This document shows, piece by piece, positions 2,547 to 49,164 of a DNA stretch of 49,164 nt. The first letter of the stretch is position 1; each line of letters starts with the position of its first letter. The DNA is from Paludibacteraceae bacterium (GTDB lineage: Bacteria; Bacteroidota; Bacteroidia; Bacteroidales; Paludibacteraceae), in contig JAKSLB010000022.1 of NCBI GenBank assembly GCA_024401435.1, positions 1-49,164 of the forward strand, given 5' to 3'. Under the pieces are notes generated by a model that saw only the letters and a program-made list of their open reading frames with translations, had not been told where the DNA came from and did no database searches. The position numbers and the translations under genes are program-made.

Positions 2547-4642
2547 GGCTTTTGTTGACAAAACTCAACAAATACCCTACCATCCACTTGCAAGTCAACA
2601 CCATTGAATGTTAACTTTATAGTATCCGTATTCTTTATAGGTGCTTCCATATAGAAGTCAAAGTATATGTTGAAATCGGTATAGCTAGGGCCGTATGACA
2701 CATTATATGTGTTGTAATAAATCTTTTGATACACCAACTTGTCATTATAGAAAGCCTTCAACAATCCATTACTATTAAATCCGTGAACAGTTGTATATAC
2801 TTGACAACGGATATATCCCTCCGTAAATGACTTGAAATTGCTTGGCAATGTGATTGTCAATGAATTGAAATTCTTGAAATACTTTGGCATTGCCCTACTT
2901 ACATATGTCATATCAAGATGACCTTTTCCACTACAAAATGCCGTTTCTTGGGTTGTGTTATTTACTGTGTTGTAATAGTCATAGAAACTATTTGTACTTG
3001 TATATGAACCACCATACATTAGTGCATAGGAACTAGCTTGCGGATAACTATTGCCATCCTTGTCCTTCGTATTCCTCTCATAGCCTTGACCATTGTATAT
3101 CAATGTGTCAATTGGTCTAAATGTCTTGTTCCAATTGCATAACATTCCGTGTTGTCCACTCAATGGTGGAATTGCATTGTATGTTTGATATGAAGAATAT
3201 CCGTAATATGATAAATCCTTTATAGTTTCACTACCTACGAAATAACCATAGCAATTGTTTGTAATACTTTTTTCATCTTCATACACACAAGTCTTTTTTA
3301 CATAGTTGCATTGACCATCACCGTCCTTTTTGGCATTCTTCAAGTCATTTTCAAGAAGTTCATCAAACTTCCTTTCCAACTTATCACTTGCTTCACTTAT
3401 GTAATCTTCACTATTAAGCAACAATTGTCCTTCGGTGGGTTCAATTATAGTATTACTATCAAGGTTTTCATTTTTATTTGGGAACATATGTTTATCAAAC
3501 CTTTTAAACACATCATCCCTCAATATGAACCAATAATTGTCTGGTACAATGTCATCATTATATGTGCTACCAAGAGATATATTACCTTTATGATAGCATT
3601 CGCCACATATGGCTATGTAACTATCATTCACAACAGCCTTATGAAGTTCTCTAGCAACCAAAGCCCAAATAAATTTTGCAAATTGATATCTATACTTCTT
3701 CAACAATTCCGTATCAGAAAAAACTGCTGCATTTTGATATGTTGGATAAATAAACAAATCATCTAGATAATTTGTATATAGATTTCCACCATCCTTATTA
3801 AATGCCAATTTCAACAAGTCATATTTATTATTGATTTTTTTATTGTAAATCGGTTCGCCACCTGTAAGACCACCCAAACCAAGACCAGTACAATAATTAT
3901 TTTCATTTTCCGTAGGGTCGTTACATAAGCTAAATTGGTAGTTATTTTTGATGTATGGTTCTATAACAAACCTACATTCATAACCATTCATATTATATGT
4001 TTCATTGACCTCATATTCCTCATATGTAAAGTACATACCTAGATTGTACTTGGTAATGAAATATTCAATCCAAGCATTGAAATCACTAGGACAATAATTG
4101 TAGATGTTGTTTTCATTATTCAAAGCACATAGGGTATTATTTTTAAGGTCATTGTACTTTATTCCATACTTTGCGTAATCATCCTTGTAATCCTCTGGAT
4201 TGTTATTTATGAACTCTTTCAACCTACCATTGAATGTACAAATATTTTCAGAAAAACCACAATTGTTTCCTGCTATGCAATTCATTTCCTCATATTTAGG
4301 TTGTCTTTCAAACTTCTTTATATAAGCCAACAAGAACACAAGAATCATCATATCTTGTATGACCCTATTGTACTTTGATTCATAGCTATAAGCACCTGGC
4401 AAGAAAGAGAAAATCTTGTTTACTATGGTATTTGAATAATATTCATTATAATCACTGATATTGAACATATCCACCAATGTATAATAGAATGTCCCATAAT
4501 CAGAAAATGGGTCACAATCCGTTATAGCACTTAAAAACACATCACAGAAATAGTATTCATCCTTTTCGGTTTCACCTACCTTGAATGTGCGTTCCTTTAA
4601 ATTGAGATGGTATATCTTATAGACTTCATTCTTTTTTGCCAT
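2543..4642 (-). CDS. Large Asn/Tyr-rich protein, probably structural
   Basis: A 699-residue protein rich in Asn, Tyr and Asp with many cysteines in its middle part (for example NCYGYF and ETAFCSGKG). No enzymatic motif, signal peptide or membrane segment is recognised. The start has no Shine-Dalgarno sequence but carries TACATAAT two bases before the ATG, the motif shared with other virion-type genes in this window. The gene lies downstream of the acidic 141-residue gene and is separated from it by a terminator hairpin. Size and composition suggest a baseplate, tail or decoration protein; this is an inference. Confidence 0.6.
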   Translation of the reverse strand: MAKKNEVYKIYHLNLKERTFKVGETEKDEYYFCDVFLSAITDCDPFSDYGTFYYTLVDMFNISDYNEYYSNTIVNKIFSFLPGAYSYESKYNRVIQDMMILVFLLAYIKKFERQPKYEEMNCIAGNNCGFSENICTFNGRLKEFINNNPEDYKDDYAKYGIKYNDLKNNTLCALNNENNIYNYCPSDFNAWIEYFITKYNLGMYFTYEEYEVNETYNMNGYECRFVIEPYIKNNYQFSLCNDPTENENNYCTGLGLGGLTGGEPIYNKKINNKYDLLKLAFNKDGGNLYTNYLDDLFIYPTYQNAAVFSDTELLKKYRYQFAKFIWALVARELHKAVVNDSYIAICGECYHKGNISLGSTYNDDIVPDNYWFILRDDVFKRFDKHMFPNKNENLDSNTIIEPTEGQLLLNSEDYISEASDKLERKFDELLENDLKNAKKDGDGQCNYVKKTCVYEDEKSITNNCYGYFVGSETIKDLSYYGYSSYQTYNAIPPLSGQHGMLCNWNKTFRPIDTLIYNGQGYERNTKDKDGNSYPQASSYALMYGGSYTSTNSFYDYYNTVNNTTQETAFCSGKGHLDMTYVSRAMPKYFKNFNSLTITLPSNFKSFTEGYIRCQVYTTVHGFNSNGLLKAFYNDKLVYQKIYYNTYNVSYGPSYTDFNIYFDFYMEAPIKNTDTIKLTFNGVDLQVDGRVFVEFCQQKP

Positions 4643-48318: not shown

Positions 48319-48628
48319 AAAAATTCATTTTTTTCTAGACTATGCCTTTACAAAGTTCTTTGAAATTTTTATATTTTCCTATGTGAATGGTGTTGCTAAA
48401 CAATTTTTAGTTTGACAACCAAAGACATACTACTAGATAGATATGTGCTAATTGACAATTTGGCTTTTTTATTTCTTTCATAATTGAAAGTTGCTATTTG
48501 TGAATGTAACGATAAATCTTTATCCCCTTATTTCTTAAAGTCGTTTCGTTCACTCCGTTGTTGGTGATTGGATGTGAGAGAGATAGAAAATAGGGGAAAG
48601 TTTTTAATGACAATCAATGAAAGTTTTA
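48319..48628. other. Intergenic region ahead of the tRNA genes
   Basis: A 310-base stretch without a gene. It holds two TTGACA boxes (48412-48417 and 48452-48457), neither with a good -10 box at 17 bases, and an imperfect inverted repeat (CCCCTTATTTCT at 48524 with AGAAAATAGGGG at 48585). A tRNA-operon promoter probably lies here, but I cannot place it. Confidence 0.4.
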
Positions 48629-48996
48629 GGGCGGTTAGCTCAGTTGGATAGAGCATCTGTCTTTAACTTATAGGAGTGCTTGATTGGAAACAATCAATGT
48701 AGAACGCTTCAAAGTCGGTGAAGGCTTTAAAATGCTAATACCGAGCCAAGCAAGATGAACCATTGTAGTAGAAAATATACATGTATGCTAAACAATATAA
48801 TTACTACAATAGAATTGATACAATGATTATCAAGGCATACATAATATCTTGAAGGTGTAGAGACTAGACGGAGCGAACCTAAATCAGAAATGATATGGTT
48901 AAGGTATAGTCCAGACTACAAACAACGAAAATTGGTAGTGAAAACTATAGTGGTAAGCTAAACAGAGGGTCGCAGGTTCAAATCCTGCACCGCCTA
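48629..48996 (+). tRNA. tRNA-Arg(UCU), interrupted by a group I intron
   Basis: Exon 1 is 48629-48663 and exon 2 is 48958-48996. Acceptor GGGCGGT pairs with ACCGCCT (one G-U pair). D-arm GCTC/GAGC, anticodon stem TCTGT/ACAGA, T-arm GCAGG-TTCAAAT-CCTGC. Joining exon 1 (ending CTT) to exon 2 (starting CTAA) gives a normal 7-base loop CTTCTAA, with anticodon UCU for AGA codons. D-loop A20, C35 and discriminator A73 agree with arginine identity in bacteria. No CCA is encoded. Confidence 0.88.
48664..48957 (+). ncRNA. Group I intron in tRNA-Arg
   Basis: A 294-base intron inserted after U34. Exon 1 ends in U and the intron ends in G, as group I splicing requires. GAG at 48674-48676 can pair with the exon CUU to form P1. 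TTGATTG-GAAA-CAATCAA (48680-48697) is a tetraloop hairpin. The core shows AATACCGAGCC and GACTAGACGG, and P7 pairs GACTA (48862-48866) with TAGTC (48907-48911). No homing-endonuclease frame is present. Confidence 0.88.
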
Positions 48997-49042
48997 TTAC
49001 CTTTTTAAAATGGTTGTTAATTGATTTTCAGTGGTGCTATAT

Positions 49043-49164
49043 TGGGAACTAGCTCAGTTGGTTAGAGCGACGGTCTTTAATAGCAATTATGAGTGCTTGA
49101 TTGGAAACAGTCAATGTAGAACGCTTCAAATTCGGTGAAGGCTTAACTGCTAATACCGAGCCAA
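49043..49164 (+). tRNA. Second intron-split tRNA gene, running off the window
   Basis: Exon 1 is 49043-49077: acceptor strand TGGGAAC, then TA, D-arm GCTC/GAGC with loop AGTTGGTTA, G26, and anticodon stem ACGGT, ending CTT. From 49078 the sequence matches the 5' part of the first intron, so the break is again after U34. Exon 2 lies beyond the window; the anticodon starts with U but the amino acid cannot be told. The intron 5' helix is extended here by TAAT/ATTA. Confidence 0.8.

Follow-up and report, generated by a model that had tools for sequence, protein, structure and literature searches.

Group I introns that interrupt the anticodon loop of tRNA genes are known from cellular genomes. In cyanobacteria and plastids they lie in tRNA-Leu(UAA), where they follow U34, have a short core and end in G. 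The proteobacterial introns of Agrobacterium and Azoarcus tRNA-Arg(CCU) and tRNA-Ile(CAU) share this general design and follow U36. In T4-like phages, the td, nrdB and sunY introns occur in protein genes and belong to another subgroup.

An earlier sequence-only reading of the DNA studied here held that phage group I introns are known mostly from protein genes, a fair account of the literature in view of a 2014 review, according to which every phage intron known by that time interrupted a protein gene, although phages have many tRNA genes (Hausner and others, PMC3984707). In a 2025 study of huge phages from the gut, 2,513 group I introns are counted, and the word tRNA is absent from its text (PMC12363816). 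Our search of open-licence PMC literature, covering titles and the starts of abstracts, returned nothing on group I introns in phage tRNAs. The locus described here is a tRNA-Arg(UCU) gene with an insert in its anticodon loop, on a contig that encodes phage proteins.

The split tRNA-Arg(UCU) gene

The window (the whole 49,164-nucleotide stretch analysed) is the entire contig C120 of a 3.8-Mb assembly. The gene near its end has three parts:

48629..48663, + strand: 5' exon of tRNA-Arg(UCU), acceptor stem to U34 (ARAGORN, on the joined exons and in introns-allowed mode)
48664..48957, + strand: group I intron of 294 nt, supported by a leave-one-out covariance model, with RF00028 below gathering
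48958..48996, + strand: 3' exon of tRNA-Arg(UCU), C35 to the discriminator A (ARAGORN; identical anticodon arms in IMG/VR)

The sequence-only reading had proposed an insert between U34 and C35 whose removal rebuilds tRNA-Arg(UCU). Its coordinates proved exact, and ARAGORN accepts the joined exons as tRNA-Arg(tct), a full cloverleaf with anticodon UCU; the product is 74 nt long, instead of the 75 bases foreseen. With introns allowed, ARAGORN calls the same 74-nt tRNA-Arg(tct) directly from the genomic sequence, with an intron of 294 nt and the same borders, and without introns it reports zero tRNAs in the whole window. The introns-allowed mode called no tRNA of any kind in 200 dinucleotide-preserving shuffles of positions 48321-49164 (0/200). 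The insert is preceded by exon ...CUU, and its last bases, ...GGTAAG, include the terminal G.

The splice junction is supported by uninterrupted tRNA-Arg(UCU) genes in 18 IMG/VR contigs, in which the 27-nt anticodon arm matches that of the joined exons letter for letter. Over the whole gene, the best matches among intact IMG/VR tRNA-Arg(UCU) genes agree with the joined exons at 64/74 positions. The ORF list contains no ORF of ≥60 aa inside the insert. No record in a blastn search of the whole split gene against phages covered 80% of it among the 40 matches listed (258 further records); 21 of these 40 correspond to the intron core and 19 to the 5' exon.

Neighbouring split tRNA genes and the phage setting

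Two tRNA genes occur in tandem within the last 540 bases of the window, Arg and then Ile, the latter comprising:

49043..49077, + strand: 5' exon of a split tRNA-Ile(UAU); when bases 27-65 of contig C172 (L006) are appended, the result is tRNA-Ile(tat) with 7 acceptor pairs
49078..49164, + strand: 5' part of the tRNA-Ile intron, ending at the contig end (69.3 bits over 86 model positions from 49081, 3' side cut off)
49088-49090 and 49091-49093, + strand: guide of the tRNA-Ile intron, triplet UAU and then GAG (from the letters)

The first 26 bases of C172 correspond to the end of an intron of this kind (23 bits, E 0.0008) and are followed by a tRNA 3' half; C120 and C172 seem to adjoin, with C172 holding the rest of tRNA-Ile. 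The break between them in the assembly may have arisen from sequence common to the introns. Searches of IMG/VR with the joined tRNA-Ile arm and with the Ile 3' half had 0 matches and thus revealed no close relative of the phage.

On C172, positions 2704-3461 encode a tRNA-Leu(UAA) split after U34 by a 684-nt intron. The core of this intron, which was outside the input of the covariance model described below, scores 166.1 bits, and the end of its HNH endonuclease ORF (2766-3311; phrog_10822, E 1.3e-27) overlaps the ribozyme core. The tRNA-Leu(UAA) itself differs from ordinary tRNA-Leu in its short variable loop; comparable genes occur in several IMG/VR loci (for example, L028, L030, L073 and L075). 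By eye, C172 also has a tRNA-like 3' half downstream of two endonuclease-like stretches (~1614-2400), with a 7-base acceptor match ~770 bases upstream; this may be a further tRNA that is split or broken. The sequence-only reading overlooked the second split tRNA in the window, the third on the seemingly adjoining contig, and the fact that the family is common in environmental phage contigs.

The phage setting that it assumed is borne out by the protein families of the window contig, which include single-strand DNA binding protein, baseplate hub and wedge, exonuclease and head closure. Terminase and head maturation protease families are found on C172. The terminase and exonuclease matches are mostly in T4-like phages, and the phage is probably T4-like. 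At C172 9173-10051, the end of the terminase large subunit ORF resembles, by eye, the start of an intein. Elsewhere in the assembly, contig C128 encodes an intact tRNA-Arg(UCU) that lacks an intron, and the intron model finds matches in 4/61 genomes, its own genome included. The intron therefore fits phage, not host, ownership.

Fold and family of the intron

The signs of a group I core named in the sequence-only reading, the P7 pairing GACTA/TAGTC and other segments, are present, together with a U before the 5' splice site and the terminal G. Taken strictly, the Rfam check that it proposed fails: RF00028 scores the Arg intron at 22.7 bits, under the gathering score of 50, and no Rfam family reaches its gathering level anywhere in the window. 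That threshold is a defining score, not a defining structure. A covariance model built from 32 other tRNA introns, with the window left out, gives the Arg intron 180.4 bits (E 6.5e-44). When folded, positions 48629-48996 also exceed 100 shuffles in stability (z -3.63).

The family alignment of 33 introns has a common structure of P2, P3, P4, P5, P6, P6a, P7, P8, P9 and a P9 hairpin, in which P7 and P8 are pseudoknotted with P3. Across it, 96.1% of cells are paired and 34/47 pairs have changes on both sides. None of 500 shuffles attains any of five measures, and sliding the partners by 1-3 columns leaves ≤42.8% of cells paired. Pairing is near complete in the core helices (P3 98.0%, P4 99.5%, P6 99.0%, P7 100% and P8 99.2% of cells). 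The two helices that form the heart of the pseudoknot are located as follows:

48705..48710, + strand: P3 5' strand, CGCUUC, pairing with 48870-48875 (helix 2; both-side changes in 5/6 pairs)
48870..48875, + strand: P3 3' strand, GGAGCG (family fold)
48862..48866, + strand: P7 5' strand, GACUA, pairing with 48907-48911 (helix 7; both-side changes in 3/5 pairs, 100% of cells paired)
48907..48911, + strand: P7 3' strand, UAGUC (family fold)

From knowledge of the family, we take P7 (48862-48866/48907-48911) to be the guanosine-binding helix. The Arg intron thus has the conserved group I core (P3/P7, P4, P6 and P8) and the expected splice sites, with an exon U that can pair with a guide G and a G at its end. 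GAAA loops cap P2 and the P9 hairpin. Such loops are usual in subgroup IC3, which is at most a candidate subgroup for the Arg intron.

RF00028 has no match at E 0.1 in the tRNA-Leu(UAA) intron of the same phage, while it gives 70.5 bits to an intron that interrupts a tRNA-Trp elsewhere in the assembly, on contig C13; it thus seems to miss the branch to which the Arg intron belongs. Within the genome, RF00028 matches fall on contigs C13, C139 and C2, and none falls on the window contig. The C13 locus (G000:C13:30667-31118, L174) is a tRNA-Trp(CCA) with a 696-nt group I intron above RF00028 gathering, in which the last exon base, by eye, is C, not U (borders provisional). At G000:C139:194751-194997 is a group I intron of 80.8 bits, in a stretch where ARAGORN finds no tRNA.

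Exon reconstruction, the leave-one-out model, covariation that includes the P7 pseudoknot and the intact IMG/VR genes together uphold the central claim of the sequence-only reading, and we consider it supported, from comparative sequence analysis, that the 294-nt insert is a group I intron of a phage tRNA-Arg(UCU).

Distribution of related introns

A core pattern drawn partly from known phage tRNA introns, and thereby favouring tRNA matches, found at least 120 IMG/VR stretches, 80 of which were tabled. Among the 80 loci listed, 68/81 places lie inside an ARAGORN tRNA (introns allowed) and 13 lie outside. Two patterns aimed at non-Leu 3' splice sites matched 18 and 20 stretches, and an exact 22-base P9 pattern had no match in IMG/VR. 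Intron placement succeeded in 117 cases and failed in 2, and several low-scoring placements were wrong. The set used here has 104 introns (100 with a score of ≥6, 3 hand-placed Ile introns and that of the window), reduced to 45 non-redundant introns of <300 nt, of which 33 were aligned.

Anticodon-loop tRNA introns are not rare in phages. Anticodons of the split tRNAs in IMG/VR include UAA, UCU, UUU, UGU, UGA, UGC, UAG and UAU, and a UUG call (L167) has doubtful borders. The family site follows a U in the anticodon loop, mostly U34: 102/104 introns were placed after CUU, by a method that favours a U. In our own reading of six loci (L078, L087, L114, L156, L071 and L008), insertion occurs elsewhere, at U33 in Arg(UCU) and a CAU tRNA, U35 in Asn and U36 in Arg(CCU). 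Some phage contigs have several introns, with four to five matches over ~5 kb in L139 and three within 1.5 kb in L157.

Named phages also have such introns. They interrupt tRNA-Leu(UAA) in Agrobacterium phage Atu_ph07, the 735-kb phage LR756501 and LR756511 (700 nt), both tRNA-Lys(UUU) and tRNA-Arg(UCU) in LR756508, tRNA-Lys(UUU) in Gordonia phage Daredevil, and an annotated tRNA-Arg in Microcoleus phage My-WqHQDG. The Microcoleus record is the only one of the three annotated records to include the tRNA, and the three LR756 records are unannotated. Introns in tRNA-Arg(UCU) also occur in four bacterial contigs, two of Lysinibacillus, one of Viridibacillus and one of Marinomonas. Similar cores are also found outside tRNAs, between pieces of a replicative helicase gene beside a GIY-YIG endonuclease in crAss-like phages (L013 and L014) and between two capsid ORFs in Pelagibacter phage HTVC120P.

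Guide sequences and the anticodon

Two adjacent triplets near the 5' end of the Arg intron face the exons:

48671..48673, + strand: P10 guide triplet UAG, complementary to C35 U36 A37 of the 3' exon (family-wide tests)
48674..48676, + strand: internal guide GAG (P1), pairing with C32 U33 U34, with a U34.G wobble

GAG occupies this place in 80/99 rows of the tree described below, and the triplet before it varies. In the window, P10 is UAG facing CUA in Arg and UAU facing AUA in Ile. The four distinct Thr introns all have UAC facing GUA (4/4). Leu introns mostly have UUU (16) or AUU (13) facing AAA (29/34 together), of which AUU pairs at 35 and 36 only. The Arg introns are mixed, with UAG in 4/11, AAG in 4/11 and others in three. 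Some introns, such as L057 and L149, have a P10 that fits poorly. Full three-base pairing occurs in 34/63 distinct introns, whereas 5000 shuffles average 12.7 and never exceed 21; with the Leu introns removed, it occurs in 18/29, compared with 7.2 (kinship ignored in both counts). The P10 test omits 16/104 introns, in which the exon does not end in CUU or no GAG is near the 5' splice site. Among these is the Leu intron of the same phage, in which the triplet before the core GAG is, by eye, AAU, which would pair at 35 only.

Kinship was taken into account with a tree built without the guide columns. In 22 path-independent pairs of introns with different anticodons, 19 fit their own anticodon better, 1 fits worse and 2 tie (one-sided p 2e-5), although many of the branches used are weakly supported. 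Starred branches of this tree provide 2-4 contrasts per test, nearly all of which agree and none of which oppose, and none of these tests is significant; with the guide columns kept, the median p was as low as 0.016 in 1/5 such tests. Well-supported branches are not numerous enough by themselves to show whether P10 tracks the anticodon. Comparison across the family makes it likely, though not proved, that the P10 triplet follows the anticodon, a possibly new observation.

Relationships among the introns

The tree includes 99 introns: 98 of 122 model matches (coverage ≥0.85 and a clear tRNA label), from a model search covering the window and 98/188 loci, and the Ile intron as a composite row from two contigs, compared over 110 columns. 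Beforehand, 16 labels were corrected by hand and 3 were set to none. Bootstraps are unsettled and several branches are long in the 99-intron trees.

In the tree, the window Arg intron and the adjacent Ile intron are sisters (99/68). The Leu intron of LR756501 joins these two in a starred clade (98/89; 100/97 when the guide columns are removed), and Atu_ph07 and a fifth row come next (98/90). The C172 Leu intron of the same phage falls outside the Arg/Ile grouping. A single clade for all 20 Arg(UCU) introns is rejected (p-AU 6e-5). The 11 anticodon labels require 36 changes on the tree, between the minimum possible of 10 and the 47.4 of shuffled labels: an anticodon label is kept for a while, yet switches often. 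The placement of the Arg intron with the Ile intron beside it, and not with other Arg introns, may also be new.

A proposed mobile, self-splicing intron

The exon reconstruction, the fold and its covariation, the grouping of the Arg and Ile introns as sisters and the matching of P10 are visible in the sequence. As to splicing, the succession of events and the way in which the intron moves, we infer the following. GAG would pair with C32-U33-U34 to form P1, and the UAG before it with C35-U36-A37 to form P10. A guanosine bound in P7 would cut after U34, and the exons, guided by P1 and P10, would be ligated just after the terminal G, yielding a normal tRNA and releasing the 294-nt intron. C32-U33-U34 is common to many tRNAs, so the same P1 guide would fit them all and a copy could move from one tRNA to another, after which the P10 triplet would change to fit the new anticodon. 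A copy could spread by reverse splicing at a CUU target, with P10 changing afterwards. Alternatively, recombination in the tRNA array could be started by an endonuclease and completed by double-strand-break repair; an endonuclease ORF is absent from the Arg intron and present in the Leu intron. Both routes would be compatible with the pattern seen.

We regard this explanation as a whole, a self-splicing intron of a phage family, guided by P1 and P10 and mobile between tRNAs with P10 adapting, as highly probable. Its main competitor is that the Arg and Ile genes are duplicates of one intron-bearing tRNA whose anticodon later changed, so that the intron never moved. The genes adjoin, their introns are 87% alike over 110 shared columns, a 31-base stretch over the D arm and anticodon loop is also 87% alike, and selection for identity elements could hide a duplication elsewhere in the tRNA. 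Yet the acceptor, anticodon and T stems agree at 15/34 positions (13/34 with the Ile border corrected, and with no unrelated pair as a yardstick), whereas a 57-base stretch of the introns is 95% identical. For this reason movement of the intron is favoured over gene duplication, though unproven. Nor would one anticodon change explain L139, where, in our reading, sister introns (99/94) lie in a tRNA-Ile of class I and in a tRNA-Leu whose variable arm is long. We therefore consider duplication rather improbable.

It is less probable still that the intron is a dead remnant, with no phage tRNA made and the host tRNA-Arg(UCU) doing the work. The intact gene on C128 and the low Rfam score would suit a remnant, but decay is hard to reconcile with a core that scores 180 bits in the family model, exons that fold into a full tRNA and a P10 that fits this anticodon at all three bases. 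Removal of the insert by protein enzymes, as for archaeal and eukaryotic tRNA introns, would suit its anticodon-loop position; its 294-nt length, complete group I core, covarying P3 and P7 and terminal G speak against this, and we give it almost no credence. Returning to the self-splicing, mobile intron, we lean, with distinctly less assurance, towards its extension to the family: phage anticodon-loop introns would roam between tRNA identities, with P1 reading the shared C32-U33-U34 and P10 evolving into an anti-anticodon that co-evolves with the tRNA.

Group I introns often reside in phage tRNA genes, where they interrupt tRNAs of eight or more anticodons. It has long been asked how these introns arrive at new sites, and the question becomes directly testable with tRNA arrays that offer sister introns in different tRNAs, with uninterrupted sites in other phages and with a guide of three bases that suits the current host tRNA. 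Gene finders without an intron mode miss such tRNAs, as ARAGORN did by default in the window.

Comparison with known systems

The Arg intron itself is of a known kind, and what may be new is that such introns occur in several tRNAs with a P10 suited to each. It resembles the tRNA-Leu(UAA) introns of cyanobacteria and plastids in its site after U34, short core and terminal G, but those occur in cellular genomes and in tRNA-Leu, whereas the Arg intron is phage-borne and has a close copy in tRNA-Ile(UAU). The Agrobacterium and Azoarcus introns have the same general anticodon-loop design, but at U36 rather than U34. The td, nrdB and sunY introns of T4 come from the same broad kind of phage, but differ in subgroup and in interrupting protein genes. 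The tRNA introns of named phages (Microcoleus, Atu_ph07, LR756501/508/511 and Daredevil) share a related core and the anticodon loop, mostly in other tRNAs. The tRNA-Arg(UCU) introns of Lysinibacillus, Viridibacillus and Marinomonas match the Arg intron in tRNA, place of cutting and kind of core, and differ in lying on bacterial contigs.
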